64,000 nucleotides of DNA from a virus. The stretch spans positions 1-64,000 of IMG/VR virus record IMGVR_UViG_3300005821_000002; one strand, given 5' to 3'. Of the stretch, positions 14,489 through 31,517 are shown piece by piece. Below the pieces are notes generated by a model that searched no databases, had not been told where the DNA came from, and was given only the letters and a program-made list of their open reading frames with translations. A program made the translations under genes and the position numbers. The first letter of the stretch is position 1, and each line of letters starts with the position of its first letter.

Positions 14489-14489
14489 G

Positions 14490-15451: not shown

Positions 15452-15668
15452 TCCACGGAATATTTATGGTGAATTTTTTGGGCGGTTTCTTTTTAGTTCC
15501 AAAACAAGCCGCGTCCATAAATGCTCCCATGAAAAACCATTTTATTCCTGTGGCATTTTCCAGAATTTTCTCTATATGATATAATGGACGTGGAGAGTAA
15601 TAAACATCTACAATTACTCTCCATATACCATCTATACCTTTTTCTGGTTTACATTTTATGGTTTTCAT
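15444..15668 (-). CDS. Small protein, unknown function
   Basis: 74 aa, basic. Contains GIDGIWRVIVDVYYSPRPLYHIEKIL. Overlaps both neighbours by several bases. Not recognised. Confidence 0.5.
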   Translation of the reverse strand: MKTIKCKPEKGIDGIWRVIVDVYYSPRPLYHIEKILENATGIKWFFMGAFMDAACFGTKKKPPKKFTINIPWNE

Positions 15669-15924: not shown

Positions 15925-16124
15925 AATTCACGCTCCAATGTTGTGACACTAAATTTACGAAGATTTCTTACAGGAACTCCTGTTACCATTTTATGTCCCT
16001 GTTCATTTATGCTATCAATATTTAAACATTTTGTTTGTTCATCATATGATAAAAGTTCTGTTTCAAATGTTTCTGGTGGCATATCTGCATCATCAAAAAG
16101 ATAATAAAATTTAACTATTTTCAT
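15921..16124 (-). CDS. Small acidic protein, unknown function
   Basis: 67 aa from MKIVKFYYLFDDAD; the ATG overlaps the upstream TGA. Strand-rich. Not recognised. Confidence 0.55.
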   Translation of the reverse strand: MKIVKFYYLFDDADMPPETFETELLSYDEQTKCLNIDSINEQGHKMVTGVPVRNLRKFSVTTLEREL

Positions 16125-16348
16125 ATTGCACACATACTTTCATCAACAATAGCTACATAATCGGTGGTATATAATTCTATATGAAGTGTTTCTATCTCAA
16201 AGTCAGGGTCAATTTCAGGTTTTATTTTATGGAATCTTTCCAACGCCTGACGTTCATTTTCTGCCACAACTAAATAATATGTTTCTTCTTCTATATGGGC
16301 CCGTACATAACCATTTATAAATCCGATTGCTCTAATTTTATATAACAT
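16121..16348 (-). CDS. Small protein, unknown function
   Basis: 75 aa. YVRAHIEEETYYLVVAENERQALERFHKI is strand-strand-helix. TAATG coupling to the upstream gene. Not recognised. Confidence 0.55.
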   Translation of the reverse strand: MLYKIRAIGFINGYVRAHIEEETYYLVVAENERQALERFHKIKPEIDPDFEIETLHIELYTTDYVAIVDESMCAI

Positions 16349-16548
16349 TATTTTAACATCCTATCTGTCTTTATAACCTTAATAATTGGCTCAGGTTCAT
16401 TGTTCATTATTGTTTCCCAAAAATCATATAAATTATCTTGTATTTCATTTATTTCATCTAAACTTAATTCAAGTTCAAATTCTACTTTTACTTTCACAAA
16501 CTCTGATACGCCAAGTTGTTCAAAGATTGTAGTTGCTATGTTAGCCAT
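16348..16548 (-). CDS. Small acidic protein, unknown function
   Basis: 66 aa from MANIATTIFEQ (GGAG upstream). The longer frame to 16587 runs through the 39-codon gene before it. VKVKVEFELELSLDEI is a strand then helix. Not recognised. Confidence 0.55.
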   Translation of the reverse strand: MANIATTIFEQLGVSEFVKVKVEFELELSLDEINEIQDNLYDFWETIMNNEPEPIIKVIKTDRMLK

Positions 16549-16660
16549 AATATTTCTCCAGTAAGTAAGTTGTCTTATATCCAACATAAAGACCCATAAT
16601 TAGCGTTAATTCTATTGCTATTGTTAGAATAAATATATCGAATTGTTGTGCGTTAAACAT
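16541..16660 (-). CDS. Small single-span membrane protein
   Basis: 39 aa with one hydrophobic helix (FILTIAIELTLIMGLYVGY). Ribosome site GAAAGG. Overlaps the genes on both sides, as expected in this tightly packed operon. Confidence 0.5.
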   Translation of the reverse strand: MFNAQQFDIFILTIAIELTLIMGLYVGYKTTYLLEKYYG

Positions 16661-16997
16661 CTTCACCCTTTCTCCTATCCATTATTGGTAAATCTTTTAT
16701 GAATTTATATATTGGAACAATGATTTTTATAATAAATTGTACAATTAGAAGATTGAATCCAAATAATAGGGCAAATGGAACTAAAAATCCCCAACAAAAT
16801 ACTAGAACGATTGATACACCAAATCCTATAAATAAAGGTATAACAATATCTTCCCAAACATCTACATACTGAGTATCTTCTACTTTTTTTACAGTCCAAA
16901 CTGTAAAAAATCCCCAACAAAATATTCCAAGGATAGTTCCACATAGTAAATATCCTGTAGTAAATGACCATATAAGATTGCTTAAATAAATGTTCAT
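16653..16997 (-). CDS. Membrane protein
   Basis: 114 aa from MNIYLSNLIW (AAAGGAG upstream). Three hydrophobic segments with W/F/C-rich cores (LLCGTILGIFCWGFF; IPLFIGFGVSIVLVFCWGFLV; LLFGFNLLIVQFIIKII). Function unknown. Confidence 0.6.
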   Translation of the reverse strand: MNIYLSNLIWSFTTGYLLCGTILGIFCWGFFTVWTVKKVEDTQYVDVWEDIVIPLFIGFGVSIVLVFCWGFLVPFALLFGFNLLIVQFIIKIIVPIYKFIKDLPIMDRRKGEDV

Positions 16998-17008
16998 AGT
17001 TTTCTCCT

Positions 17009-17335
17009 TTAAACCCAAATTACTTTGGGTTTTTCTTCTTCTTTTTCTTCCGGTTTTTCTTCTGAATTTTTAACGTCCTTTTTACCCTTAATTGAATTCA
17101 TAAATACACCATTAATTGGAATTACTTTTGATAATGTTAATTCATGTTCCCAAAATATTTGATCATGAGTCTCTGTAAATTGACAAGTATATTCAAATCG
17201 TCTATAATCATCAGTAGGTTCATCTATATCAACTATTTGAATAATCTTTCCAATATATTGCCCAATAAGACAGCTTTCATTTACTTCTACCCAATCTCCT
17301 ATACAAAATGCTGGTATTTTATTCAATGGGAACAT
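17009..17335 (-). CDS. Unknown protein with acidic tail
   Basis: 108 aa. PAFCIGDWVEVNES then IGKIIQIVDID looks like an SH3-like barrel; the C-terminus is a Lys/Glu stretch. Ribosome site GAGG. Not recognised. Confidence 0.55.
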   Translation of the reverse strand: MFPLNKIPAFCIGDWVEVNESCLIGQYIGKIIQIVDIDEPTDDYRRFEYTCQFTETHDQIFWEHELTLSKVIPINGVFMNSIKGKKDVKNSEEKPEEKEEEKPKVIWV

Positions 17336-17708
17336 CTTTTTCCTCTATTTCTTCTTCTAATTCAAAGAGTGATTTATCTAAAGAACTTCTGTGATATTTT
17401 CCAGAAATTTTACATTTTAGTGAACAATAATATCCACCATTTTCTCTTGCATTAACTTCCTTTTTAGTAGCCCTAAAGCTAGCACTACAACTATCACAAC
17501 TATATAACATTTTACCATCGGATTTCTTTTCTGATTTCTTTCCTATTTTCTGTTTTATCTTTTTATTAGGTGCTCCTATATTTTTGATCACATCATCAAT
17601 ATCAAAATTACCATCAATTATCCAATCACTACTACTAGCATCAGTGCCAGGATTATTGGTAGTTGTTCCAGTATAACTGGTTGTAAATTTAGGACCATCA
17701 TTTGGCAT
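17319..17708 (-). CDS. Zinc-finger-like protein
   Basis: 129 aa. Disordered Thr/Ser/Gly N-terminus, basic linker (KKIKQKIGKKSEKKS), then CDSCSASF...YYCSLKC, a four-Cys zinc site at about residues 72-101, and an acidic tail. Could be a small nucleic-acid-binding factor. Confidence 0.6.
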   Translation of the reverse strand: MPNDGPKFTTSYTGTTTNNPGTDASSSDWIIDGNFDIDDVIKNIGAPNKKIKQKIGKKSEKKSDGKMLYSCDSCSASFRATKKEVNARENGGYYCSLKCKISGKYHRSSLDKSLFELEEEIEEKDVPIE

Positions 17709-17946
17709 GAGATTGTTCCTCCCTTACTGTTTGTATAAATGTTTTTGATTCATCAATCATATTGTTTATTGATTGTAATGAAAGCATATTATTACTACTA
17801 TCTAAATACAATTCAAACCCAAGTTTCAATATTGTATAGTGTGATTTAGCATTAAAACTTACTGATGGGTTTTTATGTCGGCGGTTTATTGCCGATAAAG
17901 TAGCAAGTGTTGCTGTCACACGATTTATTGTGATTGTTTTATTCAT
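17698..17946 (-). CDS. Small protein, unknown function
   Basis: 82 aa, mostly helical. NKTITINRVTATLATLSAINRRHKNPSVS at the start. Overlaps both neighbours. Not recognised. Confidence 0.55.
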   Translation of the reverse strand: MNKTITINRVTATLATLSAINRRHKNPSVSFNAKSHYTILKLGFELYLDSSNNMLSLQSINNMIDESKTFIQTVREEQSHAK

Positions 17947-18370
17947 CGAAATGATACTCTAACAATGTTTCCAAATGATATTGAGCTTTTTTAGCATTAT
18001 CTTCCAATAATCTATCCGCAAAATTGTTTACATCATTCACAAATTTCAACATTGAGTCAAATCTTTCAGGATTTTCTCTGAAGTTTTCAACTACATCTAA
18101 TACCCATTTTAATGTATGTAAATTATTGTATGCAATTCTTACCTGATCTTTTCTGGGGTCGTCCATACAAATCTTTAATAATTTTGAAGACGAAGAAATA
18201 ACTTTATTTATTACAGCATCAACTTCCTGAGAATTAGACCCAGAATGTTTTATCACTTTCTTCGGTGTCTTCTTTTTCACTGTCTTTTCCACCGTTTTCT
18301 TTGGTGGATTTATTATCAGACTTATTCCCAGTAGTTTGCTCGCTAGTCTTCGCAGGAAGGAGTTTGACAT
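17939..18370 (-). CDS. Helical protein with basic N-terminus
   Basis: 143 aa. The start has a strong GAGAGG site and lies 137 bases inside the preceding gene in another frame. Residues 20-45 are Lys-rich (PPKKTVEKTVKKKTPKKV); the remainder is helical. Function unknown. Confidence 0.6.
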   Translation of the reverse strand: MSNSFLRRLASKLLGISLIINPPKKTVEKTVKKKTPKKVIKHSGSNSQEVDAVINKVISSSSKLLKICMDDPRKDQVRIAYNNLHTLKWVLDVVENFRENPERFDSMLKFVNDVNNFADRLLEDNAKKAQYHLETLLEYHFDE

Positions 18371-18704
18371 CTTTTTCCTCTCTTTCTTTAGTTGGTAAAG
18401 CAGCGTCTAAAAGTTTTGCCATACTCATATCATCAGTATTATCTACATAATATGAACTAGTATCTCCTAACCAATATTTTATATCATCATCATTGTTTAT
18501 AATATAAAGTTCAGGGTCAACAACAAAAGAATCACCTAAATCAAGGTTTATTGGGTCAAGAACTTCTAAATCCCCCATAACTTTTAAAGATGGAAAAGTT
18601 TCCGCAGCTTGTATTAAAGCTTGTTCAGTAGTTTCTCCAATAACAAAACATATAAAAGGAATAAAATCATTGACTGTTATTGGATAAAGTTTGAATTTTG
18701 ACAT
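18234..18704 (-). CDS. Acidic unknown protein
   Basis: 156 aa. N-terminal alpha/beta part (YPITVNDFIPFICFVIGETTEQALIQAAETF), then a disordered Lys/Glu/Asp/Ser-rich tail. Its last 45 codons are shared, in another frame, with the basic N-terminus of the next gene. First gene of the 12.5-18.7 kb operon; ribosome site AGGAG. Confidence 0.6.
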   Translation of the reverse strand: MSKFKLYPITVNDFIPFICFVIGETTEQALIQAAETFPSLKVMGDLEVLDPINLDLGDSFVVDPELYIINNDDDIKYWLGDTSSYYVDNTDDMSMAKLLDAALPTKEREEKDVKLLPAKTSEQTTGNKSDNKSTKENGGKDSEKEDTEESDKTFWV

Positions 18705-18893
18705 GTTTTTCTCCTAGTTTATTTCCGATAACCGAATAAATTTATGAGTTAGTTTACCTTTTTACCCCTTATTTTATTGGTATTTATCAATAAAATATAG
18801 ACAAATTTACTCTAAACTATCTTCTTCGGGCACCGAAGATTATATCTAACAAATTTTGTGATACTAATTTGGGTAACGGAATTGTTCTGCAAT
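18705..18893 (-). promoter_or_regulatory. Operon boundary with hairpin and GGGTAAC motif
   Basis: Holds GGGTAACGG (18871-18879; CCGTTACCC on the minus strand) and a 7-bp hairpin TCTTCGG/CCGAAGA around 18823-18840. TATAAT-like AT-rich DNA follows on the minus strand. Probably drives the 12.5-18.7 kb operon, but no sigma70-like -35 is visible. Confidence 0.4.
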
Positions 18894-19136
18894 CTAACTT
18901 CCTAATATTTTTTCTTCTAAATCGTCCAAAAGAGTTTCGACATCTTCTGGTAGCCAATAAGTGTTAGAATAAATGGGTCCCCCACATGCAGGAAGATTGT
19001 TTGCAAAATTAATTGAACCCATTAGTTCTCGCTCATTGTCAGTAATTGGTCTAAGAACATTATCACCAGTTTTTGTGGTAGTATCTTCTACAATTATTGG
19101 CTCAATTCCATCTAAAAGTTCCAAGTTTTTAGTCAC
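18894..19136 (-). CDS. Small acidic protein ending ligase cassette
   Basis: 80 aa from a GTG start with AAAGGAG upstream, right after the C26 peptidase stop. Contains NLPACGGPIYSNTYWLPEDVETLLDDLEEKI. Not recognised. Its tight linkage suggests a role with the cassette; it might be a substrate or accessory, which is speculation. Confidence 0.55.
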   Translation of the reverse strand: MTKNLELLDGIEPIIVEDTTTKTGDNVLRPITDNERELMGSINFANNLPACGGPIYSNTYWLPEDVETLLDDLEEKILGS

Positions 19137-19137
19137 A

Positions 19138-19797
19138 TTAAAACTCCTTTGTTCTAAATAACCAGTCTAAAACTTTCATACGATTTATATAGGCTTTTTC
19201 TGCCATTTCAGGATGAGATTGTACAGCCCTAAATTTTCCATCTAAACTTTGAAAACCCTCTACTACTCCAAAATTAGAGTCAATCATTACTGGTAATAAT
19301 CCATCACCTAAATCTTTGACTGCTTGGTGGTGTAAAGAATTTACAGTTATTTCATCACCATCTTTTAACCCTAAATAAGTGAATAAACATTCACTATCTA
19401 CTAGCGTAATTTGGTGAATATGATTGTGTCCAATATCTGCTGATGGTAAATCTTCATATAATGTTCCACCCATCATTACGTTTAAGAATTGTGACCCACG
19501 ACAAATTCCTAGAAAGATTGTATCTAAATTCTTATAGAAATCAAAAACTAATTTCTCTTGCCAATCTCTAGCTAAATTTACACTAAGTGATGGGTGATAA
19601 GAACCTCCATAAAGTACTGGATGAACGTCTGCCCCACCATCAAAGATTATCATATCAATATCTTTTGGTAATTTATCATCACCATAATTGGGGTCTAAAT
19701 CAACAATACTTGCTTTTTCTCCAAATAAATGTAGGATAAGTCCGTCCCAACTTGCTGCCCCACTATATCCTGTGAATGGTATTCCTATTTTTATCAT
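19138..19797 (-). CDS. Peptidase C26-like class I glutamine amidotransferase
   Basis: 219 aa. DGGADVHPVLYG (about 51-62), the nucleophile elbow LGICRGSQFLNV (about 95-106), GGTLYEDLP, and C-terminal AVQSHPEM with His and Glu form the Cys-His-Glu triad of the gamma-glutamyl hydrolase / PuuD-like C26 family. Such enzymes hydrolyse gamma-glutamyl amide bonds. It sits at the end of a cassette of amide ligases, so it probably trims or reverses the bonds they form; that is inference. ATGA coupling with the gene upstream. Confidence 0.85.
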   Translation of the reverse strand: MIKIGIPFTGYSGAASWDGLILHLFGEKASIVDLDPNYGDDKLPKDIDMIIFDGGADVHPVLYGGSYHPSLSVNLARDWQEKLVFDFYKNLDTIFLGICRGSQFLNVMMGGTLYEDLPSADIGHNHIHQITLVDSECLFTYLGLKDGDEITVNSLHHQAVKDLGDGLLPVMIDSNFGVVEGFQSLDGKFRAVQSHPEMAEKAYINRMKVLDWLFRTKEF

Positions 19798-20531
19798 TTA
19801 ACTTTCCTCCAAAAGTTTAGTAAACCATCTATTGTCATAGTATTGTAAGTTGCTGGACCCGATCTTAGGAATGTATTATCTCCAACTATTCCTTTACCAA
19901 AAACATCAGTCAACATATTTAGATAGTTTGCGATCCATTTTTCTGCACCTGCTTTATCAGAACTCCAGCATTTCTTAAATAAAGCATCATGTAAATAATA
20001 TTCATCATCACCAAATGCCATTTCAGAAATAGATACAACATCTTTCCAAGATGTTAATGCTTTTTGTCTAGGATTATCCTTGAAAAACCTATCCCAATCT
20101 TCGTAATACTGTATGTTTATTTTTCTCAATAATAAATATATTGTATATAATCCACCCCAATGCAAAGCTTTCCATCTAGGTTTTTTTATTGGATTAATAT
20201 GAACTAATCTTGTGTATCTGTATCCAGAATAATATCTACTAATTCTAAAATAATGTCCATACATTCTATTCAAATCTTTAAACAAAGCATCATAATTAAA
20301 ATACTTCAAACGGCGGTTGAATTTCAAAGGATAAACTGCCATAGAATATGTGTCAACAGGTAGATTAAAAACATAACCAAATAAATCACCATAACATCTT
20401 GCTCTTTTATAATTATTTTCTCCAAAAAAGTAATGAGCGTACAAATCCTTACCTTGATCATTTTGAGCAAATTCTCTAATTCTATCTTTATGAAAGGTTT
20501 TTATATGTTCAATTTCATTTTTTGTTGTCAT
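19794..20531 (-). CDS. Unknown protein, paralogue 2 of ligase cassette
   Basis: 245 aa. Aligns by eye to the next gene upstream (20515-21351): EIEHIKTFHKDRIREFA with DIDFIKKHKKERINAIS, LFKDLNRMYGHYFRISRYYSG with MMKDMKRIFGHRFTILRYKSG, LHWGGLYTIYLLLRKI with LRYMGYYLIFILLRAI, and NYLNMLTDVFGKG with NYIEVLTTAFGRK. No known family recognised. Conserved Arg, His, Tyr and Trp suggest a folded catalytic or binding domain. Confidence 0.75.
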   Translation of the reverse strand: MTTKNEIEHIKTFHKDRIREFAQNDQGKDLYAHYFFGENNYKRARCYGDLFGYVFNLPVDTYSMAVYPLKFNRRLKYFNYDALFKDLNRMYGHYFRISRYYSGYRYTRLVHINPIKKPRWKALHWGGLYTIYLLLRKINIQYYEDWDRFFKDNPRQKALTSWKDVVSISEMAFGDDEYYLHDALFKKCWSSDKAGAEKWIANYLNMLTDVFGKGIVGDNTFLRSGPATYNTMTIDGLLNFWRKVK

Positions 20532-21351
20532 TTTTTGCCTGCCTTTCTTTTACAATTTGTTCAACTATATTAAACGCTGGAGTTTGTCCACATCTAAAGT
20601 TTCCAATTTTGAAAGAACCTAGATAATATCTTCCCTTACTATTTTCACAAACAGCAGAGAGAATTTTTTCTAGTTCTTCTTTAGTCATTCTGAAGTCAAA
20701 TTTTCTACCAAATGCAGTAGTAAGAACTTCGATATAATTATTGATAGCAGATTCAAATAATTCTTCTGAGCCTATATTATTAGCATTTTTATCTTCAGGA
20801 CGTAGAGCATAAAGTTCATCATTAATTCCATGCCCCGAACCTTGAGCATATCTACTCCACATATATACTAAATCTTTCCAATTATTAATTGGAAAATCAT
20901 ACTTTTCTTTTCTAGCTGGAGTATGATAAATCATAGATAATTTTTCCATTCCTTCTCCATCAATAGCTCTCAGTAAAATAAATATAAGATAATAACCCAT
21001 ATATCTTAACTCTGTGCGAGGTAAAGGTCGCCGTTCTCTTATATCAATAATTCTACAATCTTTATTTCCAGATTTATATCTCAAAATAGTAAAACGGTGT
21101 CCAAAGATTCTTTTCATATCTTTCATCATTTCTGTAAAATTTACAATTTTAGAATCATCATCCCATTTTAGAAGATACTGCATAGAAGTTCCTTTGGGAG
21201 TCTCCGCTAATCTTTGATTTAACCTTGCAAAACAAACATCATTCATTAGCTTTTCTTTATGTCCAAAATTAACTCCATAAACACTGTTACTAATAGCGTT
21301 GATTCTTTCTTTCTTATGTTTTTTGATAAAATCTATATCTTCTCTGGACAT
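20515..21351 (-). CDS. Unknown protein, paralogue 1 of ligase cassette
   Basis: 278 aa, paralogue of 19794-20531 with an added C-terminal 60 residues (EELEKILSAVCENSKGRYYLG). TAATG coupling to the type 2 ligase gene upstream. The shared IFGHRFTILRYKSG and YMGYYLIFILLR segments are the best-conserved parts. Always next to the ligases here, so a partner of the modification pathway is plausible. Confidence 0.75.
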   Translation of the reverse strand: MSREDIDFIKKHKKERINAISNSVYGVNFGHKEKLMNDVCFARLNQRLAETPKGTSMQYLLKWDDDSKIVNFTEMMKDMKRIFGHRFTILRYKSGNKDCRIIDIRERRPLPRTELRYMGYYLIFILLRAIDGEGMEKLSMIYHTPARKEKYDFPINNWKDLVYMWSRYAQGSGHGINDELYALRPEDKNANNIGSEELFESAINNYIEVLTTAFGRKFDFRMTKEELEKILSAVCENSKGRYYLGSFKIGNFRCGQTPAFNIVEQIVKERQAKNDNKK

Positions 21352-22361
21352 TAGAATAAACCCCTTTGCATTGTAATATTTAGAAATTTTAAATCATCCA
21401 TCTTTACAAAACCATTTTCCAACGCCCATCCCATAGATTTCTTATATAATTTACCTGCATTTTCTTGATCAAGTGTCATCAAAGTTTTATACATATCAGG
21501 AATTAAGTTTGCTTTATCCTCTGCAAATTTTTCTCCAGCACTTTCAGCAATAGTTGCTGCTAAATCCATTGTGTAAAGTAGTGCTCTTGTCATTGGATAA
21601 TTCCTAATGAAATGATTTGACATTACTCTATATTCAATTCCAAATATCTGTTCTTTAGGATTATAAATTTGCAAACGAATTCTTCCAGGTTTTCCATAAT
21701 ATTCTAATCGAGCTTTTTCGTACTTAATTATCTCTGGTTTTCTCCTAAAAGTTGTATTCAACATTCCTACAAAGAAGTCGAAACAAATTGCAGTTGAATC
21801 CCATTTTTCAAAATAAATTGATGGAGAAGAAATTGGGGCTTGAATATGAATATGTGCGCCACCATATCTAAATTCATGAGAAGAAACATCCAATTCTTCC
21901 GTATGATCTTTTCCTTCTAAACCTAACTCAAAATATTGCATAGGAAATTCGTCAGGATCACACCCAAATATGACGCACATTTGAAATTCTTCGCCACGAC
22001 CTTCCCAGTATTTATTTACATCAAAATGTCCCAATGGTTTTGTCCAAACTTTTAATCCATGTGGACTAATAAAATGTTGCAAAGCATTAATTCCACGATT
22101 TACTGTACTAAAGAAACCTCGCACAGTATCTTGGGGATCAATTTGCATTTCAATTGCAGCCCCATCTTCTGACCATTGAAAACCATTACCAAAAAGTAAA
22201 ACTTTCTTTCCTTCACTATTAACCATATTCATACCAAAATCTTCTACTAAAGCGGCTGGTGGAATTATTTCTGGAATATTCCCGTATTTTGTCGGAACTA
22301 AATCCTGGTAAACAAATGCTTCAGGATCAGTTCCAAAAGTATGTAAAAGAGTTTTACCCAT
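21351..22361 (-). CDS. COOH-NH2 ligase type 2 (phiEco32-like amidoligase)
   Basis: 336 aa. FGTDPEAFVYQ near residue 9 matches the GADPE(F/L) signature of phage COOH-NH2 ligase type 2 enzymes, a branch of the amidoligase (glutamine-synthetase-like) fold. Further hallmarks are YGGAHIHIQAP (about 167-177) and IEYRVMSNHFIRN (about 224-236). These proteins are predicted to use ATP to join a carboxylate to an amine. GAGGAG site; 8-base overlap with the gene upstream. Substrate unknown. Confidence 0.85.
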   Translation of the reverse strand: MGKTLLHTFGTDPEAFVYQDLVPTKYGNIPEIIPPAALVEDFGMNMVNSEGKKVLLFGNGFQWSEDGAAIEMQIDPQDTVRGFFSTVNRGINALQHFISPHGLKVWTKPLGHFDVNKYWEGRGEEFQMCVIFGCDPDEFPMQYFELGLEGKDHTEELDVSSHEFRYGGAHIHIQAPISSPSIYFEKWDSTAICFDFFVGMLNTTFRRKPEIIKYEKARLEYYGKPGRIRLQIYNPKEQIFGIEYRVMSNHFIRNYPMTRALLYTMDLAATIAESAGEKFAEDKANLIPDMYKTLMTLDQENAGKLYKKSMGWALENGFVKMDDLKFLNITMQRGLF

Positions 22362-22776
22362 GTTTAATCTCCTCGTCTAGGAAAATTTTTGGCTCTACTT
22401 CTTGTGCAGTAAAACCATCACGTTCTATATCCTTAATATAAGTATCTTTTACTTTAATATGTAATAATTGTGGATTTAATTCCTCTTTTGTTCCTTCTTT
22501 AAATGCATAAATAATTCTAAAATCTTCTACGCTACCTTTATTTCCACTATATCCACATTGTAATTCTAGTTCTTCACTTCCATCTAAAACTTTTTTACAA
22601 TCACTACACCGTAATCCTACAGTTTTAATTCTGACATCATGTGCTATAAGACTTGCAAAAGAAATAAGAATTTTATGTTTATCCTTAATTTTGATATTTG
22701 GTCTTCCGAATATATTTTCAATACTAATATTGATATTAATATTTCCACCACAATTTGCGTGTCTAAGATTTAGCAC
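22354..22776 (-). CDS. Unknown protein of ligase cassette
   Basis: 140 aa from GTG with GAGGAG upstream. Residues 50-75 hold a CSDCKK knuckle; the rest is beta-rich (ININISIENIFGRPNIKIKD). It ends in the acidic EVEPKIFLDEEIKHG. Not recognised. Confidence 0.6.
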   Translation of the reverse strand: MLNLRHANCGGNININISIENIFGRPNIKIKDKHKILISFASLIAHDVRIKTVGLRCSDCKKVLDGSEELELQCGYSGNKGSVEDFRIIYAFKEGTKEELNPQLLHIKVKDTYIKDIERDGFTAQEVEPKIFLDEEIKHG

Positions 22777-24082
22777 TGATTTCTTCTCCTCTCTTTAGAA
22801 TATCTTTAGCCCCATCCTCATCTAAACCAAGAAATTGAACGGCTATACCATATTTTTCTTCTACAATTTCTGCTAATTCTTTACACAATTTTCTTTGAAC
22901 ATCATCTTCAACAAGAATTTCTAAAAATCCATATGAAATAATTGCTATTAACATTTCACTCTCTGCAATTGAAATACCACCCTCAGTAATATTGGTATCA
23001 ATATTTACCATATATTCTGCTCCCCAAATTTCAGATGTTAGCATAGCTTGTCCGGATAATATTTTGGAAAGTTTAATTGGTTTATGTTCATTAAGAGTAT
23101 TATCATTAGATGGCTCTTCTTTTGCTAGTGTAATTTGTTTTTGTACAAGATTCTTAGCATTTTTGAGCATTTCACTAATGGAAGATGTCTCTGTTGAATT
23201 CTTTTCTAAATTTGTTTCCGGGTCCTTCTCCCAATTTTCCTCCAGATTTTTTACTACAAGTTCCTCAGCTTCTTTTTCTTCCTTTCTTATCTTCTTATCT
23301 TCTAATTCTTTCAAAATTAAATCCAATCTTCTTGTATTCATTAATTCAATATCAGTAGTTTTCCAACGAGTAGGAATTACTGGGATACATTTTGCTCTAT
23401 CAAAATCGTTATACAAAGTTCTTAATTGACTGGTAGTAATTGATCTTGTATCACCTATTATTTTTCTCAAAAACATAACAAGAGTAGCAAATCCCCAAAA
23501 AGATACTGGTTTTACTTCTCCATTTTGTTTTGGAACAAATTTATCACAATAATCTGCGAGAACTATTGTTCCCAAAACTCTCTCGGAATACATAGTAGGT
23601 GTCCTAAAAAGTTGATCACCTATTTTCCAGAATAAATCTGGACCACCTAATTCTATTCCATTAGTATCAAACCAATCACAATAAGTAGAAAAATTAAGTG
23701 GTTTCCATTCATCAGTTTCTATTCCAAGATATGTCCAAGGGTCTTTATAATCTCCTCTTCCCCCAAATAATTGATAATTTTTATCCAATAAAATAAACTT
23801 AAAACTATCTCCATATTTTTCGTGTGCTCTTACTAAAGATGATGCAATACATTTTTTCATATTATCTGTAGGAAAACTTGTTCCAGTATATACCTTTGTA
23901 TCATTAATCTGAATCTTACAAAGTTTAGCCTCAAATTCTACTAAAACTTTTGGATGATTATTTCCTGATAAAAAGGTAAGTTCTCCCCATTTAACTATGT
24001 CTGACATATCTGCTCCAATTCTAGCAGATACTTCCCAACTTATTTTATTCCATTGAATTTCTAGCTTTTTAATGTCTGTCAT
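22763..24082 (-). CDS. Unknown 439-aa protein of ligase cassette
   Basis: N-terminal 240 residues are alpha/beta with Trp/Tyr-rich turns (DPWTYLGIETDEWKPLNFSTYCDWFD) and a FWGFATLVMFLRKIIG segment reminiscent of the YLIFILLR segment in the two paralogues downstream. A Lys/Glu-rich linker follows at about 255-330, then a C-terminal 100-residue acidic domain. No family recognised. Ribosome site AAAGGA; overlaps the AAA+ gene. Confidence 0.7.
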   Translation of the reverse strand: MTDIKKLEIQWNKISWEVSARIGADMSDIVKWGELTFLSGNNHPKVLVEFEAKLCKIQINDTKVYTGTSFPTDNMKKCIASSLVRAHEKYGDSFKFILLDKNYQLFGGRGDYKDPWTYLGIETDEWKPLNFSTYCDWFDTNGIELGGPDLFWKIGDQLFRTPTMYSERVLGTIVLADYCDKFVPKQNGEVKPVSFWGFATLVMFLRKIIGDTRSITTSQLRTLYNDFDRAKCIPVIPTRWKTTDIELMNTRRLDLILKELEDKKIRKEEKEAEELVVKNLEENWEKDPETNLEKNSTETSSISEMLKNAKNLVQKQITLAKEEPSNDNTLNEHKPIKLSKILSGQAMLTSEIWGAEYMVNIDTNITEGGISIAESEMLIAIISYGFLEILVEDDVQRKLCKELAEIVEEKYGIAVQFLGLDEDGAKDILKRGEEISAKS

Positions 24083-24884
24083 TTTCTAATCCTTTCCAGT
24101 CTAGGAATTTACGTCCTCGACTTGTAATTGTTATGTGACCTTTTTCTATTAGAAAAGGTTCTATTTCATTCTTAATTGTATCTTCATCTACTTTTATTGA
24201 CCTAGAAATCATCTTCAAACTTGCACTAATAACAGTTGAAATAAATTTTAGATAATCATTATCTATATCAGTATATCCTTGTGAATAAATTCCAATATCT
24301 TTGAACGCATTTTCTACACCAGAAATTGTAAAAGCATGTAATCCATTATCTAGCATAAATTTAATTCTACGAGTATAAACTTTTACTTTTCTCGGACTTC
24401 CTCTTGATCTTTTTGCAACTAAAATTGCCGTTGCTAAAGTCATGGCAAGTCCCAACTCTCTGGCATAATTTACTGCAATTTGTGCCAACTCTTCATCCGT
24501 ATAATCTCGTAGATTAAATGTAATACATCTGCTAGAAAATGGATCAGGTAAATCTCCAAAATCTGTTGTACAATATACCATTACATATTTTCCAGAGTCC
24601 ATAAATTCATAAAGTTGTTCAAAGTTTTTCATCATATGAATTTCGTCAATAATATGACAACGAATTGCTTCATAACCTTTCATACTGAAATTATTATCCG
24701 CTATTTGATAGCTATATCTTCCACAGACAAATTTACAGAATTCTTCTGCTAACATTGTTTTACCAGAACCTGCGGGTCCACGCATAATAATATTTACTGA
24801 TTCTTTTCTCCTACGTTTTACACTATTAGCAATAGCTTGTAATTCTCTTACTATTTTCTTTTGACCAATATATCCTTTAAACAT
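24069..24884 (-). CDS. RuvB-like AAA+ ATPase
   Basis: 271 aa. Walker A GPAGSGKT (about 35-42), Walker B IIDEIH (about 73-78), sensor 1 CTTD, arginine finger SSRC, sensor 2 GSPRKV (about 163-168), and a winged-helix-like end (EIEPFLIEKGHITITSRGRKFL) as in RuvB. RuvB moves branched DNA, but here the gene is coupled between an ATP-grasp and unknown cassette genes, so it may remodel a protein or nucleoprotein substrate. ATPase class is clear; role is inference. Confidence 0.85.
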   Translation of the reverse strand: MFKGYIGQKKIVRELQAIANSVKRRRKESVNIIMRGPAGSGKTMLAEEFCKFVCGRYSYQIADNNFSMKGYEAIRCHIIDEIHMMKNFEQLYEFMDSGKYVMVYCTTDFGDLPDPFSSRCITFNLRDYTDEELAQIAVNYARELGLAMTLATAILVAKRSRGSPRKVKVYTRRIKFMLDNGLHAFTISGVENAFKDIGIYSQGYTDIDNDYLKFISTVISASLKMISRSIKVDEDTIKNEIEPFLIEKGHITITSRGRKFLDWKGLENDRH

Positions 24885-25636
24885 TATATATACTCCCTTA
24901 ACTCATTGGCATATATTCGCATAGTATTTGGGTTCAATCCTGGGGCAGTATTTATTTCCCAGATTATGTATTCTTTCTTTTCTTTATTCCATGCCATATC
25001 AATACCACCAAAAAATAACCCTAATTTACTAGAAATATTCACTGCTAATTCTTGTGCTTTTTGATATTTATTATTCAGTGTCTCATCCAATCTTAATGAG
25101 TAATGAAATCCATGTCTAGAAGTTCTAATCATTTCCCCACGTTCTATATGTCCAGGTTTTACTTTCTTAAAAATTCGCACAATTTTACTATTGATAACAT
25201 GGACTCGTAATTCAGAAGATGTAGGCACAAAATCTACTACATATCTTTGGGCTAAAATATTACGACGAATTCTCATTAAATCTTGTTCACTTTTTATGAT
25301 GATAATATCTCGCCCTGCCATATGATATAAATTCCTTAGTAAGAAGGGATATTCTGGTAAATTATTCCAATCAAATCGGCTATAATATGGAACATTAAAT
25401 TCATTATCTTTCGCCCATCTTCCAAACCAATAAGAATTTGCACAAAGTCGGATAATTTCTGGAGAATTTATATTTGTATCCTTATAGAATTCTCCGTGAG
25501 AACATCCATATCTTATTATAGGATAACTTCTTTTTCTCTTTATTTGGTCAATATTTCTATTAAACGGAATTCTCAATAATCTCGCCAATTCTCTTGCAGT
25601 ACGAAAAGATTTAGGATGATATAAAAAGTGTCCCAT
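24884..25636 (-). CDS. ATP-grasp ligase (RimK-like)
   Basis: 250 aa. The C-terminal half carries ATP-grasp hallmarks: SELRVHVINSKIVRIFKKV (about 136-154), GIDMAWN (about 216) and the metal-binding YIIWEINTAPGLNPNT (about 227-242), where E and N coordinate Mg. Such enzymes make amide bonds through an acyl-phosphate intermediate, often adding amino acids to peptides or proteins. The N-terminal region (HPKSFRTARELARLL) may bind substrate. Ribosome site AGGAG. Confidence 0.85.
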   Translation of the reverse strand: MGHFLYHPKSFRTARELARLLRIPFNRNIDQIKRKRSYPIIRYGCSHGEFYKDTNINSPEIIRLCANSYWFGRWAKDNEFNVPYYSRFDWNNLPEYPFLLRNLYHMAGRDIIIIKSEQDLMRIRRNILAQRYVVDFVPTSSELRVHVINSKIVRIFKKVKPGHIERGEMIRTSRHGFHYSLRLDETLNNKYQKAQELAVNISSKLGLFFGGIDMAWNKEKKEYIIWEINTAPGLNPNTMRIYANELREYI

Positions 25637-25645
25637 AATTTTCTC

Positions 25646-26917
25646 CTAGTGATTTACTGCTACGGGTAATTTAACTTTCTTTGCCTTGCTTTTTATAAGT
25701 TTCTTTGACATCAATAAATACGGGAAAGAAATATCACTGTATTTATATCCTGCAAGTACATGAATTTTATTGTCTTTCAAAAATTCTCTCCAAACTTTAC
25801 GACGTCCCTCATAATCAAATTCAGAAAGTCTTACCATAATTTCCCGCAAATATTCTAATTGAACTTCAGTACAAACATGTAAACTATTTCCGAAAGCATA
25901 TTCTGCTAAAATCATTAATTCTGCCAAACCTGTTCCAGTATCTGTAGCAAGATCATAAAAATCTGAAAATCTTTTTGCATCATCATTTCGTTCACTAGAA
26001 TCTAAATAACCTTTATTAGGTGAAGCAATAGATTGAGAAACATTCCCAACTCTTGGGACGGGTTTTCGTACTACTACAGGTGGAGATGTTTGTTCAATAT
26101 CTTCAACGGCATCACCTATATTATAAGAATTTAAGTTATATTCATATATTTTCTCTTCTTCCAATATACTAATACCAATATGTACATTTAGATTATGAAA
26201 TTCCTTTGCAATACTCTTTACCATCTTTGACCAGAACATTAATTCATAAAGATTAGTATTTAAAACTAATCCAATTCTTTCACCATCTTGTTTCCCTGAA
26301 CAAAGTCTAGCCATATGTAGTGGTCTATCTTTTCCACGAACTACGAATACTTTTTTGGGTTGTTTTATATCATAAATTAATAGAGCAAAGGGACCGTGAA
26401 AGTATTCCATAGTTTTTATTATGTGTTCTTTTTCTAATTTATGTTTACCACAAACATGAGACAATAATACACAGAATTTTTCACTATCAATCATTGGCTC
26501 ATCTTTTGAATTAGCAGTTTCGAGTAATTTCTGCAATTTTTTATTATCTTCTAATTCAGCACTTTCAACCAATGTTCCATTATGTGCTAGAATAATATGC
26601 CCATGATGAAATGGGTGAGCATCCTCTTCAAAGATTGTAGTGATATTATTACTGGCTGCTCTTACATGATAAATTCCATTAGGATTTCGTACAGATTTTT
26701 GATATGATTCCCAATTTTCACCCCACCATTTTGCAGCACTTAATCCTGTCTTTATAATTTCGGGGGCTTTTGAAAATGTCATATATCCAAATCCATCCGT
26801 ATTTGATTGGGGACTAAATTTTACTATTGCTTGTTGGTTTAATTCCATCAAATTTCTGATGGTAGCTTTACCCAACTTTAACTTAGGATCAATATCTAAG
26901 AGTGTTAGTTGACACAT
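25646..26917 (-). CDS. Class II glutamine amidotransferase
   Basis: 423 aa. The start is placed at MCQLTLLD (AAAGGAG upstream) so that Cys2 becomes the N-terminal nucleophile after Met removal, as the Ntn family requires; a frame nine codons longer has no site. GIYHVRAASN (Arg) and ILAHNGTL (Asn-Gly oxyanion) follow at about 80-125. These domains release ammonia from glutamine. The C-terminal 150 residues hold no synthetase domain I recognise, so ammonia or glutamyl transfer may be shared with a neighbour ligase. Confidence 0.85.
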   Translation of the reverse strand: MCQLTLLDIDPKLKLGKATIRNLMELNQQAIVKFSPQSNTDGFGYMTFSKAPEIIKTGLSAAKWWGENWESYQKSVRNPNGIYHVRAASNNITTIFEEDAHPFHHGHIILAHNGTLVESAELEDNKKLQKLLETANSKDEPMIDSEKFCVLLSHVCGKHKLEKEHIIKTMEYFHGPFALLIYDIKQPKKVFVVRGKDRPLHMARLCSGKQDGERIGLVLNTNLYELMFWSKMVKSIAKEFHNLNVHIGISILEEEKIYEYNLNSYNIGDAVEDIEQTSPPVVVRKPVPRVGNVSQSIASPNKGYLDSSERNDDAKRFSDFYDLATDTGTGLAELMILAEYAFGNSLHVCTEVQLEYLREIMVRLSEFDYEGRRKVWREFLKDNKIHVLAGYKYSDISFPYLLMSKKLIKSKAKKVKLPVAVNH

Positions 26918-26928
26918 ATCTTTCTCCT

Positions 26929-28431
26929 TTATTGAAAACGACAATCTGATAGTGGATTTCCGTCAAATAAATCATCTATGATAAGTTGTAAATTAAACCA
27001 TTGAAGTTCATGTAGTATTCTTACTTCTTCTTCTTCAATATCACGATTATATACCACAATCTTGACGGAATCCGGTGTTTCTCTTATTAAAGAAATATCG
27101 AATAATTCAGCATCCCATCTACAAATATAACCTAGTTGCATTCTATGTGTTGCTATTTCGTTAAGATTAGAAGTATTATTTTCACTTATTCTAATCTCTG
27201 GTCTCATTCTTGGTCCTTCTGCCACTAATCTTGGCGGTCCGCCAAGGAAACCTCCCAAACCCTCACCTAACCTAATATCAAGATTATTTGCATCATTTTC
27301 TTGAATTTGATGTATGTCTACAAATTCTGCATCTAAAATTTCTACATCACCCAATGATTTAGGTGCTCTTTTTGAGTCATTATATCTTGTTGGTTCTTTT
27401 AAATGAGTAAATCTCCAAAGATTATCAAACATTGGTGTAGGAGATTTTTCCCAAATATCTGCCAAAACATCTACTGTATCTTCATCCAATTTTGGATAAT
27501 AAGAAAGTGCCTCTATAAGTTCTTTAACAGAAATTTCTCTATTTTCATATAATGGTCTATAAAGTTTTTCATATGATTCATCATCCTTACAAGTAAAGGA
27601 TTTATCTACAATCGCCTTGCAAAAATTTGTCCATGCAATAATATACTCAGGATTTAGTGTCTTATTTGCAGTTCTAAATTCAAAAGAACCTTGTGTAAGA
27701 ATTGGAAAGAAGTTTACACACATATAACGCTGAGTTACATATCGTACATTATGTTGAGCATAATAAAGTGAGTCACCAAAATAATTGAAAAAATCTTCTT
27801 TACTTTCTGCATTTAACATTTTCTCTGGGTCGCAAATTGGAATATTTGATATTTTACCATTTCCCCATTTTTGAGCAATAACTGGGGGACCATTTCCTAA
27901 AAATGGTCTGCAAAAACAATAGTTATTTGATACACCTCTATTTATTCTTCCCATACCACCAAGTCTAAAAAGGATTGCCTCCAAGATTAGTGTAATTTTG
28001 AGAAGATTTTGTACAGCAAATAATGGTATAGATTGACTCACATTTACATGAACATGAAATGAGTCACGTTCTGAATTTTCATCTTCACCACATTGTTGTA
28101 AAACTTCAACTAAATCATAAATTTCTTTTATCCAATCTTTATGTCCAGAATGTCTGATTGGACTTACAACTTCTCCACCAATAACTGCTTTCCTAACAAT
28201 AGGTGCTAAAGTTTCTAAATCATCTTTTCCAGTAAATTCGATAGGTAAATCAGTATCAGCAAAGAATTCACGCATACTCTCACATGATGCGTCATGGACA
28301 AGTCTATAATTCCTTAAATTTTTATTTATTAAATTTTGTTGAAGTTTTTTTGAGCGGCGGTCTAAATTACTAAATTCTATTTCTATACCAACTGACTCTA
28401 TAATTTCATGATTCATCATTCTTTCTGGCAT
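26929..28431 (-). CDS. Amidoligase (COOH-NH2 ligase type 1-like)
   Basis: 500 aa from MPERMMNHEI (AAAGGAG upstream). VGIEIEF at residues 14-20 gives the acidic metal ligands; DSFHVHVNVS at about 130 gives the His pair; YVTQRYMCVNFFPI and GSFEFRTANKTLN at about 240-265 supply the Arg/Asn signature of the Amidoligase_2 family, a glutamine-synthetase-like fold that forms isopeptide or amide bonds. A C-terminal 150-residue acidic region is extra. First gene of the cassette, behind a terminator-like hairpin. Confidence 0.9.
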   Translation of the reverse strand: MPERMMNHEIIESVGIEIEFSNLDRRSKKLQQNLINKNLRNYRLVHDASCESMREFFADTDLPIEFTGKDDLETLAPIVRKAVIGGEVVSPIRHSGHKDWIKEIYDLVEVLQQCGEDENSERDSFHVHVNVSQSIPLFAVQNLLKITLILEAILFRLGGMGRINRGVSNNYCFCRPFLGNGPPVIAQKWGNGKISNIPICDPEKMLNAESKEDFFNYFGDSLYYAQHNVRYVTQRYMCVNFFPILTQGSFEFRTANKTLNPEYIIAWTNFCKAIVDKSFTCKDDESYEKLYRPLYENREISVKELIEALSYYPKLDEDTVDVLADIWEKSPTPMFDNLWRFTHLKEPTRYNDSKRAPKSLGDVEILDAEFVDIHQIQENDANNLDIRLGEGLGGFLGGPPRLVAEGPRMRPEIRISENNTSNLNEIATHRMQLGYICRWDAELFDISLIRETPDSVKIVVYNRDIEEEEVRILHELQWFNLQLIIDDLFDGNPLSDCRFQ

Positions 28432-28504
28432 AAAGTTTACTCCTTTTTTAGATACTAAATCTTGTACAAACATTATCATGTACCAATTATATAATTTACT
28501 TAAT

Positions 28505-28537
28505 AAAAAGAGCCCTGCGAGTCAAGCTTCCGCAGGG
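28505..28537 (-). terminator. Terminator or attenuator before ligase cassette
   Basis: Stem CCCTGCG (28513-28519)/CGCAGGG (28531-28537) with T tract on the minus strand (28505-28509). It ends about 75 bases before the amidoligase ATG, so either ends the RNR operon or attenuates the cassette. Confidence 0.7.
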
Positions 28538-28776
28538 ACCAACTATCTAATTCTACCATACAATATATTAGGAGTCAAGGTCTTAATTGTTGAAAAACTA
28601 CCGAGATTGTATATACTAAATTCATTGAACCAGTTCTATATTCTTCGAACCCAAGATTCTATTATGGGGTGGGGTTTTGGTTCGGGGCTAAAAGGGTGAC
28701 CGCACCAGAACCATAGGTCCCTGGTTCCGTACTAAATAAGTCTCCGCACCCATACCACGGGTCGGGTACCTTATTC

Positions 28777-28818
28777 TTATCGTAACATTTTATTGCACGA
28801 TAACAAAAAAAATGTTAC
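28777..28818 (-). promoter_or_regulatory. Interlocked inverted repeats, possible pseudoknot
   Basis: TTATCG (28777-28782) pairs CGATAA (28798-28803); GTAACATTTT (28782-28791) pairs AAAATGTTAC (28809-28818). The order 1-2-1'-2' allows a pseudoknot or two alternative hairpins. Confidence 0.45.
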
Positions 28819-29034
28819 AGTAGAGGTACCACCACCACTGGGTCTATGTATACTGTTATTATGTAAAGTTGACTTTTCAAAAAAAGGTACCTAACGCAAA
28901 ACGGGGTACCGATATTATTGGGACAATGTTGATAAAATATGTCCGAATATAAAATAAAAAACAAATTACTTCCGAAAATTGAACTAACATTACCCCACAA
29001 CCTTTGTTCAGTATGTTTGACACAAAAACGATTG

Positions 29035-29043
29035 GGGTAACGG
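29035..29043. promoter_or_regulatory. GGGTAACGG boundary motif
   Basis: Same motif as at 12368, 12448 and 18871. TCTGTAAACTAAAAT follows both here and after the 12448 copy, so the flanking sequence is conserved too. Confidence 0.5.
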
Positions 29044-29065
29044 GTTCAATCTGTAAACTAAAATC

Positions 29066-29269
29066 CTAGATAGATGTAGAACTTTTGGTAATCTCTTCTA
29101 CTACCTTGAAATGTTTGTTCGTTAAGCCAAAGAAGCTACGATAATCAGGGCAGTGTAGAGTAACTTTAAATTCTATTGGTCTACCTTCATGTATATCATA
29201 CTCCGAAATAACCTGATTAGAAATCAGTTCTTTTCCACACTTGCTACAGTACTTAGGTAATTTAGTCAT
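29066..29269 (-). CDS. Zinc-ribbon protein
   Basis: 67 aa with CSKCGKEL near the start and HCPDY later. Ribosome site AAAGGA. Possible nucleic-acid binding; function unknown. Confidence 0.6.
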   Translation of the reverse strand: MTKLPKYCSKCGKELISNQVISEYDIHEGRPIEFKVTLHCPDYRSFFGLTNKHFKVVEEITKSSTSI

Positions 29270-29310
29270 TGTTTTATCCTTTCAATCTAAACTATAGGTG
29301 TACTTTAATA

Positions 29311-29409
29311 CTACTTGAATGCTCTGAATATAGCATCAGCAATAATGAGCCAACCTATAGAAGCAAATAGAGAGATGGTGATAAATATTACCTTTCCTAT
29401 CTTCTTCAT
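29311..29409 (-). CDS. Small single-span membrane protein
   Basis: 32 aa: KKIGK, a hydrophobic helix (VIFITISLFASIGWLIIA), short tail. AGGAG 7 bases upstream. ATGA coupling with the next small membrane gene upstream. Confidence 0.55.
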   Translation of the reverse strand: MKKIGKVIFITISLFASIGWLIIADAIFRAFK

Positions 29410-29504
29410 TTTACTCTCCTAGCCCATGTAAATATTCCACGAACAACTACAATGATCACCACAGTTAGAAGCCCATCCAAAAAAGTTAGATTAATCCTCC
29501 TCAT
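29406..29504 (-). CDS. Small single-span membrane protein
   Basis: 32 aa with a hydrophobic helix (LLTVVIIVVVRGIFTW) flanked by Arg. AGGAGG upstream; its TGA overlaps the ATG of 29311-29409. The pair may be lysis-control or superinfection proteins; this is not shown by sequence. Confidence 0.55.
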   Translation of the reverse strand: MRRINLTFLDGLLTVVIIVVVRGIFTWARRVK

Positions 29505-29505
29505 A

Positions 29506-31188
29506 TTATCCTCCTGTATTTAGTATCTGAAACAGCCTGCTTCCATCTCTATATATTGTAATTCCTTTACATCCTGATTCCCATGCCAATTCATATGCTT
29601 CCATTACATCCTTTACTGTTGCATCATTAGGCATATTGATAGTCTTACTCACTGCATTACACGTCCATTTCTGCCATGCAGCCTGCATCTTTATATGATC
29701 CTTCCAATGTATATCATGAGCAGTCTTTACGGTATGTGAAACTGCGGATTGTTCAAGAGTATCCGTAGCAGTGTTTCCAATGCCCTCAGTGATATTACGG
29801 CTATAATCATGGGCAAAAAAAGGCTCAATACCGCTATTGACATCGCTAACAAGAGATATACTACCAGTAGGAGCAATGCTTGTGACGGCAACATTTCTAA
29901 CTGGCTTCCTTTCTAATCCTAGATCGTCTATTAGTTTCCAATTTATATTGTCCCATTGAAACGCTGGAAATTCTCCACGTTCCTCTGCTAATTGCATGGA
30001 TGTTTCCCATGCTGTAGTCTGAATTGTCTTAGCTATCATATCTGCCAGAATGAATGCATCTTCATGATCGTATGGTATACCTACTTCTTCTAAAGCATCT
30101 GCCCACCCCATAACTCCTAACCCTATTCTACGAGTCATACGGACAGCTTCGTTGATTTCATCTACTGGTGTATCATTTAGTTCATGTACATTATCTAGAA
30201 ATCTTACAGCATACGCTACTACATCTTTTAAGTAGGCAAAGTCTACATACTTTCCATCTACAAATCTTTCTAAATTGATAGAGCCTAGACAACAAGCCTC
30301 ATAGGGTAACAGCGGAACTTCACCACATGGATTAGTTGCCTCTATCTCACCCAAGTAGGGCACCATGTTATCAGCATTAGCTCTGTCTAAAAAGAAAACA
30401 CCAGGGTCACCATTCAGCCATGCGTTCTCTGCTATTTCCTTAAGAATATTCATTGCTCTTTCACTGAGCAAATCAATGTCATACATAAATTCATCTGTAA
30501 TACCGACTGACATATTGAAGTGTGTCAACTGGTCATCGGCTAATGTCTTTCTCATTACGTCAAAGTATTTCTTACCATCCCTATCCAGATTATTTACATC
30601 CAAGTTTCTCATATACTCTTCAAACAATCTTTGATTACGGGTGTTCAATTCATTCTTAAAGTTTATAAACCCAAGAATATCAGGATGGTCTACGTTCATT
30701 ATACCCATCTGAGCACCACGTCTTGACGCTTGGGAGATTACCTCTCCAGTCTGGTCAAACAGACTCATGAAATCCAGAGGACCACTTGCCGTACCTCCAG
30801 TAGTAGAAACTGGTTCACCCCTACCTCTCAAATGAGAAAAGTTATATCCGATACCACCACCCCATGCAAAAATTTCCGCAGCTTTTCCTAGTGTATCATA
30901 GATACTCTGTTTACTATCCTCAATCGGAAGAACAAAACAGTTCATCAGATTTTTGATACCTGTACCAGCATTAGCTAATATTCTACCTCCTGGTACAAAG
31001 GTACGTTCTAACATAATCTTAGTAAAGTCAGCTAGATATTGTAGGCGATTACTCTCATTCAACTCAGCCTTAGATACATAATCGGCTACCCTTACACAAG
31101 TCTCACCCCACTCTTCTAGCCTTCCGTTAGCCCTTTCTTGGGCATACTTCATCTTGAAAATCTTGTCTGCATTAGTACTAAGTTCCAT
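29506..31188 (-). CDS. nrdJ: Ribonucleotide reductase, class II (NrdJ-like)
   Basis: 560 aa. Reduces ribonucleotides to deoxyribonucleotides. FVPGGRILANAGT (about 65), CFVLPIEDS, GGGIGYNFSHLRGRG (about 108), SRRGAQMGIMNVDHPDI (about 155), the active-site NPCGE with LGSINL (about 285-305), and KGITIYRDGSR near the end match adenosylcobalamin-dependent NrdJ. No NrdB-like small subunit is seen, which fits class II. It stops just after YRDGSR and lacks the usual C-terminal extension with a CxxC pair. Confidence 0.88.
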   Translation of the reverse strand: MELSTNADKIFKMKYAQERANGRLEEWGETCVRVADYVSKAELNESNRLQYLADFTKIMLERTFVPGGRILANAGTGIKNLMNCFVLPIEDSKQSIYDTLGKAAEIFAWGGGIGYNFSHLRGRGEPVSTTGGTASGPLDFMSLFDQTGEVISQASRRGAQMGIMNVDHPDILGFINFKNELNTRNQRLFEEYMRNLDVNNLDRDGKKYFDVMRKTLADDQLTHFNMSVGITDEFMYDIDLLSERAMNILKEIAENAWLNGDPGVFFLDRANADNMVPYLGEIEATNPCGEVPLLPYEACCLGSINLERFVDGKYVDFAYLKDVVAYAVRFLDNVHELNDTPVDEINEAVRMTRRIGLGVMGWADALEEVGIPYDHEDAFILADMIAKTIQTTAWETSMQLAEERGEFPAFQWDNINWKLIDDLGLERKPVRNVAVTSIAPTGSISLVSDVNSGIEPFFAHDYSRNITEGIGNTATDTLEQSAVSHTVKTAHDIHWKDHIKMQAAWQKWTCNAVSKTINMPNDATVKDVMEAYELAWESGCKGITIYRDGSRLFQILNTGG

Positions 31189-31517
31189 TATCGCTTGTCT
31201 CCACTACCACCGAGAACTTCTCTATCCCTTCTATCTGATAATTTATTTAGGTTATCTTGAGCGATGTCATTTAGACTCAGTCCTAATTCATCTGCTAATC
31301 TAGCAAGATACCAAAGAACATCTCCGATTTCTCCTGAGATAGCCTCGACAAACTCAAAGGTAAGCTGAAAATTATTGTCACGAATTAGTTTCTTTACTTT
31401 ACCCGCTACCTCACCGGCTTCATTGGTAAGACCAAGAGCAGTATATACAAGCCCATGTTCTTTAGGATAGATAGCGGTTTCTCCTGTTTTTGTCTGATAT
31501 TCTTCAAAGCTAGGCAT
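31188..31517 (-). CDS. MazG-like nucleotide pyrophosphohydrolase
   Basis: 109 aa. NEAGEVAGKVKKLIRD and ISGEIGDVLWYLARLADELGLSL give the ExxE and ExxD metal-binding helices of MazG-type enzymes that hydrolyse NTPs or dNTPs to monophosphates. Coupled to RNR by TAATG, suggesting control of the nucleotide pool. Confidence 0.85.
   Translation of the reverse strand: MPSFEEYQTKTGETAIYPKEHGLVYTALGLTNEAGEVAGKVKKLIRDNNFQLTFEFVEAISGEIGDVLWYLARLADELGLSLNDIAQDNLNKLSDRRDREVLGGSGDKR

Follow-up and report, generated by a model that had tools for sequence, protein, structure and literature searches.

Phages carry amide-ligase gene cassettes, which Iyer and colleagues are said to have predicted in 2009 and one of which, the 'peptidoglycan modification' cassette, Hardies and colleagues reportedly treated in 2013. 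ATP-dependent carboxylate-amine ligases couple a carboxylate, once activated, to an amine, class II glutamine amidotransferases (GATase II) free ammonia and glutamate from glutamine, and both C26 enzymes and gamma-glutamyl cyclotransferase (GGCT) cleave gamma-glutamyl bonds. The peptidoglycan modification cassette is conserved in RIO-1, phiEco32, 7-11, PA11, tf, LUZ24, PaP3 and CW02 (Duhaime et al., 2017; PMC5498523), and the conjecture has been made that it guards against superinfection by changing the host surface (PMC5498523; also PMC10580990). In the literature on these cassettes we found no experiment on their chemistry. Here we have analyzed an operon of this kind in the virus record IMGVR_UViG_3300005821_000002, using the stretch of 64,000 nucleotides from position 1 to 64,000 of that record, which we call the window.

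We conclude, with a probability of roughly 0.7, that the operon is a diverged cassette of the phiEco32/LUZ24/PA11 type that would build and trim gamma-glutamyl-type amide bonds, and that the RuvB-like AAA+ ATPase encoded within it is most likely a passenger of the phage family. In the list of open reading frames (ORFs) of the window, the cassette forms one compact minus-strand operon that runs from 28431 down to 18894, with the following genes in order of transcription:

26929..28431, minus strand: amidoligase (Amidoligase_2), 500 amino acids; PF12224, E=6.9e-15, and conserved residues
25646..26917, minus strand: GATase II; PF13522 (GATase_6), E=1e-7
24884..25636, minus strand: RimK-like ATP-grasp carboxylate-amine ligase, 250 amino acids; PF08443, E=1.9e-9, and phrog_2599, 1.8e-19
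24069..24884, minus strand: short RuvB-like AAA+ ATPase, 271 amino acids; RuvB_C (1.5e-12), RuvB_N and RuvB lid in Pfam
22763..24082, minus strand: U1, 439 amino acids, unknown fold; homologues at the same position in loci L023 (E=1e-15) and L103 (E=9e-4)
22354..22776, minus strand: U2, 140 amino acids, cysteine-rich, putatively zinc-binding; a family of 8
21351..22361, minus strand: type-2 COOH-NH2 ligase (phiEco32 gp86 family), 336 amino acids; phrog_3815, E=2.6e-21
20515..21351, minus strand: X1, 278 amino acids, probable divergent member of cassette family X; paralogue of X2, with C40-F-A and R128
19794..20531, minus strand: X2, 245 amino acids, paralogue of X1 by its match to it
19138..19797, minus strand: C26 (class I GATase fold) gamma-glutamyl hydrolase-like enzyme, 219 amino acids; PF07722 (Peptidase_C26), E=1.4e-27
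18894..19136, minus strand: ORF of 80 amino acids that closes the operon 1 nt past C26; no homologue was detected

A sequence-only reading of the window had listed most of these genes as a tightly coupled operon. Every gene that it named is present where it was placed, with family membership given by Pfam and PHROGs, and the coupling is real, with successive spacings of +11, +9, -1, -14, -14, -8, -1, -17, -4 and +1 nt. The Cys2 that it assigned to the amidotransferase is borne out by a start at 26917 that reads MCQ, as is the relationship between X1 and X2 (28% identity, E=3e-18). Its gene list was incomplete, since it missed U2, which lies between the 439-residue U1 and the COOH-NH2 ligase.

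The core enzymes were aligned with 9-12 phage homologues each, to which they are ~17-31% identical. Across these alignments the invariant residues are G15, E17, E19, D47, E87, H126, H128, R162, E251 and R253 in the amidoligase; R86, N113-G114 and D144 in the GATase II, where the Cys2 start is also kept; E142, R144, K158, R171, D213, E227 and N229 in the ATP-grasp enzyme; and D66, E71, H170, H172, R229, E243 and R245 in the COOH-NH2 ligase. The C26 enzyme passes the Pfam cut-off, and its C99, H195 and E197, invariant over 10 phage enzymes, correspond to the catalytic Cys-His-Glu in a class I GATase fold. Because the expected catalytic residues are kept, all five core enzymes are predicted to be active, and these apparently intact sites lend support to the earlier proposal of a pathway of amide ligases, amidotransferase and gamma-glutamyl hydrolase of the phiEco32 kind. 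Searching by tblastn gave matches to the COOH-NH2 ligase in Vp_R1, 7-11 and LAh_8; tblastn of INPHARED gave none for the amidoligase, U1 or X1.

Phages that encode the four core enzymes, for the most part together with C26 or GGCT, include those of Alcaligenes, Salinivibrio, Pseudomonas, Vibrio, Aeromonas, Salmonella, Citrobacter, Klebsiella, Rhizobium and Pseudoalteromonas, and the same gene set is found in phiEco32, LUZ24, 7-11, PA11-like phages, CW02, RIO-1 and CVT22. The window operon resembles the phiEco32/LUZ24/PA11/RIO-1 cassette in uniting amidoligase, type-2 COOH-NH2 ligase, ATP-grasp enzyme and GATase II in one compact operon with a deglutamylating enzyme (C26 or GGCT), and, as judged by position, in having unknown proteins beside the COOH-NH2 ligase. 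It differs in the low identity of its enzymes, in its gene order, in lacking both a protein that we call Y, whose usual place is next to the COOH-NH2 ligase, and the zinc ribbon of the GATase II, and in the additional U1, U2 and embedded AAA+ ATPase. The four enzymes in one operon define this kind of cassette; the deglutamylating enzyme, the X-type neighbours, Y and the ribbon are typical of it without being defining.

How widespread these differences are was studied in IMG/VR, where scanning with alignments of the ATP-grasp enzyme and the COOH-NH2 ligase gave 160 loci, to which an alignment of the AAA+ ATPase added 14; scans with single proteins (COOH-NH2 ligase, AAA+, X1) confirmed nothing. 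After near-identical loci had been merged, and with the window counted separately, there were 91 cassettes with all four core enzymes. Y alone is present in 73 of these, AAA+ and U2 together in 6, U2 alone in 1, a longer RuvB-like AAA+ alone in 1 and none of them in 10, although the scans favoured loci most similar to the window, so the share of its subtype in nature is overestimated. C26 is a usual cassette member and no novelty, being found in 56/91 cassettes, with GGCT in 25/91 and both in 9; one or the other is present in 72/91. A C-terminal CxxC..CxxC zinc ribbon is carried by the GATase II of 57/73 Y-type cassettes versus 0/7 U2-type cassettes, and the GATase II of the window has none; Y is likewise missing from the window cassette and from 7/7 U2-type cassettes. 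Because AAA+ and U2 were modelled on members of the subtype itself, the independent observations are confined to the trees and to the missing Y and ribbon.

In the tree of the ATP-grasp enzyme the window and the seven U2-type cassettes form one clade (100/100, all bootstrap trees), and the same eight-member clade is recovered in FastTree trees of the COOH-NH2 ligase (1.0), amidoligase (0.986), GATase II (1.0) and C26 (0.93). One member, L023, has the gene set and order of the window, with the single difference that C26 comes before the second X protein. The operon belongs to a newly delimited, deeply diverged subtype of the known cassette.

U1 is specific to the subtype. It matched nothing in Pfam, PHROG or NCBIfam, profile comparison with Y was not significant, and its structure model was unusable (predicted template modelling score, pTM, 0.30). 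U2 is a marker of the subtype; it contains the motifs H..CGG and CxxC, overlaps the downstream COOH-NH2 ligase gene and lies directly before that gene in 7/8 cassettes of its family. As a candidate homologue of the GATase II zinc ribbon, U2 reached ~20% probability and was rejected as homology.

The sequence-only reading had taken the two paralogues as an extension of the cassette. The COOH-NH2 ligase already has a pair of similarly sized unknown neighbours in phiEco32 (gp87/88), Salmonella 7-11, Aeromonas BUCT695 and LAh_8, and a relationship exists among several of these proteins; X1 and X2 are therefore probably not an extension. Locus L186 carries its own paralogous X pair. X1, X2 and three relatives share C[FYW][GAS] and, 83-90 residues further on, a hydrophobic helix with Arg at its end. 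The joint motif, which was defined by eye after inspection of both groups, is present in 10/13 X-type proteins (phiEco32, LUZ24, 7-11, BUCT695, LAh_8, Vp_R1) versus 2/285 background ORFs and 0.5% of shuffled sequences. Profile comparison of X1/X2 with the phiEco32-type X proteins was not significant, and the X1 structure model (pTM 0.64) found no significant fold match in BFVD.

We infer a pathway of the following form. The three ligases (amidoligase, COOH-NH2 ligase and RimK-like ATP-grasp enzyme) would join amino acids or amines by amide bonds of the side-chain or gamma-glutamyl type, while the amidotransferase would split glutamine to supply ammonia or glutamate. By cutting gamma-glutamyl bonds C26 would trim the product or set it free, and GGCT fills this place in other phages. 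X1 and X2 would be the rapidly evolving pair that commonly adjoins the COOH-NH2 ligase, and U1 and U2 are probably scaffold or substrate-binding parts in cassettes that lack Y and the GATase ribbon. C26 and GGCT interchange between cassettes, and a gamma-glutamyl intermediate or product is therefore the most economical inference. The likeliest use would be modification of a host envelope peptide or a small peptide during infection, in keeping with the published conjecture of superinfection exclusion.

Rather than a tag on a polymer, the cassette might make a small gamma-glutamyl-protected metabolite that C26 frees, by the logic of PuuA/PuuD or of gamma-glutamyl-CDP-amidate hydrolase. The C26 enzyme resembles PuuD-type hydrolases in fold family and Cys/His/Glu triad, its nearest solved structures are of the Lin1909 and PuuD type, it matches the PuuD and gamma-glutamyl-CDP-amidate hydrolase models weakly, and the frequency of C26 or GGCT in cassettes fits such a scheme. 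These matches are, however, far below the cut-offs of the models (25.9 versus 266 bits for the PuuD equivalog); nothing in the operon was recognised as a dehydrogenase, oxidase or transferase step, and three different ligases suggest a product of several residues. We regard this alternative as rather unlikely.

The AAA+ ATPase was the component that had seemed to add most to the known cassette; the sequence-only reading had it handling the tagged target. It is RuvB-like over its full length, with RuvB as the best match among solved structures, and like the RuvB Holliday-junction ATPase it has a P-loop, a lid, a C-terminal winged helix, Walker A and B, sensor 2 and a terminal RGR (the [RK]GR motif). 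Unlike RuvB it is short and reaches 113.5 bits, below the NCBIfam equivalog cut-off of 282. It also lacks the presensor-1 hairpin, by which RuvB docks domain III of RuvA (PMC9477746), and has ~17 residues fewer than 3pfi at that site.

We assigned loci to the phage family of the window by searches with terminase, polymerase and a second conserved late-region protein (302 amino acids, probably capsid). This family includes L023, L104, L105, L106 and L110 (terminase 50-67% identity), L186 (polymerase, 36%), L184 (polymerase) and L185 (terminase 50%, and polymerase), the polymerase identity of the last two being 37%. Nine family members have the AAA+ ATPase. In the window, L023, L104, L105, L110 and L186 the ATP-grasp gene directly precedes it, and in L106 one short ORF lies between. 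In L184 and L185 no cassette gene lies within reach of the AAA+ gene, and no ATP-grasp gene is present on these contigs (40 and 44 kb, probably partial). The reverse is seen in the 58.9-kb contig L103. It carries a cassette of the same subtype, with U1, U2, one X protein and C26, in which the ATP-grasp gene is joined directly to U1 and the AAA+ gene is cleanly absent; no terminase or capsid-like gene of the window's family was found on L103, and its polymerase is only distantly similar (28%).

The distribution of the AAA+ gene thus tracks the phage family and not the pathway, and therefore, most likely, it is a gene for DNA metabolism that belongs to this family and has lodged in the operon as a passenger. 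Our first impression, that it was an obligate cassette member, was dropped once the family assignment was known. The proposal that it handles a tagged target finds no support in this distribution, and neither does its place as an extension of the pathway: most phages carry the ligases without it, an outcome that the sequence-only reading had itself named as refuting. In L184 (9013-9831) the AAA+ gene is preceded by one for a protein of 272 amino acids with a C-terminal zinc ribbon, possibly its real partner.

Could the AAA+ ATPase nevertheless take part in the pathway, as a RuvB-like ring that has lost the RuvA dock and remodels either the ligase complex or the target once modified, perhaps bound to DNA? 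Its constant place after the ATP-grasp gene, even in rearranged orders, its complete ATPase motifs and RuvB_C domain, and the shortened RuvA-docking site, which argues against an ordinary RuvAB role, would all suit this. Longer RuvB-like AAA+ genes also lie between those for GATase II and ATP-grasp in L039 and L054, where no terminase of the window's family was found, and another near GATase II in L046, and these tell slightly in its favour. Against this stand the otherwise full cassette of L103 and nearly all other cassettes, which do without the protein, and the two family members that have it away from any nearby cassette. We consider such a role doubtful.

A RuvB-like DNA motor in the operon, and the position of many phage cassettes among replication genes, might also point to phage DNA or a DNA-bound protein as the substrate in place of an envelope peptide. 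This is very unlikely, given that relatives of the ligases act on amino-acid and peptide carboxylates, that the AAA+ ATPase is dispensable within the subtype, and that among 20 further phage proteins scanned (not every ORF) no base-hypermodification enzyme was recognised, only ordinary DNA methyltransferases. That the subtype with U1, U2 and AAA+ is a single machine, in which an ATP-driven, RuvA-free ring takes the three ligases along DNA or delivers them to a DNA-bound protein and there builds amide-linked glutamyl chains, we hold to be extremely improbable, although if true it would be a DNA or DNA-protein modification of an undescribed kind.

Several points weigh against a diverged cassette with a passenger ATPase. 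To our knowledge no cassette of this kind has a known substrate or product, and the idea of peptidoglycan modification and superinfection exclusion is a published conjecture. The contigs L184 and L185 are probably partial, and a cassette could sit elsewhere in those genomes. The AAA+ gene adjoins or lies near the ATP-grasp gene in 7/7 cassette-bearing family members, even where the genes are reordered (L104, L106), a proximity that fits a functional tie. Finally, the link of X1 and X2 to phiEco32 gp87/88, by motif and position, is only suggestive.

The record is 96,486 bp long with a direct repeat of 104 bp at both ends, and is therefore probably a complete circular assembly. A nucleotide search against phages gave no match. 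The phage family has at least nine IMG/VR members, and among 50,697 public phage records there was only one weak terminase match (26%); this is an uncultivated phage from a lineage without a close sequenced isolate. The terminase and probable capsid genes are placed as follows:

L007:5184-6734: terminase
L007:10016-10921: probable capsid

The region 12000-28500 is AT-rich, with 30-32% GC versus ~40% in the rest of the window and a third-position GC of 0.12-0.21 in the cassette, which suggests acquisition or a different codon pressure. A repeated intergenic element, approximately TTTTAGTTTACAGAT.GAAYCCGTTACCC, is found at 29017-29060, 12430-12475 and 18855-18905 (minus), flanking the AT-rich block as well as the cassette. 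Copies of CCGTTACCC with at most one mismatch number 20 versus 5.7 expected. This could be a regulatory or recombination element. There are 27 tRNA genes in ~6.5 kb at 38188-44716, minus strand. A scan with an anti-phage defence library gave no meaningful match.

Upstream of the amidoligase start at 28431 is AAAAAAGGAG. Further upstream there is one promoter-like feature:

28550..28578, minus strand: possible extended -10 promoter, TTGACT-17-TAGAAT + TG; pattern match 10/12

Such pattern matches are overall not above chance. Between this site and the amidoligase gene lies a GC-rich hairpin of 8 pairs (z=-0.39) followed by a T-run (28470-28578, minus). Together these could form an attenuator before the first cassette gene, although statistically not above chance. 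No credible riboswitch or other Rfam RNA was found in 12000-31500.

Amide-ligase cassettes span many phage families, and the present analysis strikes from them the AAA+ ATPase, an attractive component that probably does not belong. Since Y and the GATase II ribbon are both absent from cassettes with U1 and U2, these two sets suggest themselves as the substrate- or partner-binding modules to look at first. The two mutually exclusive subtypes of the cassette give a handle on its function.

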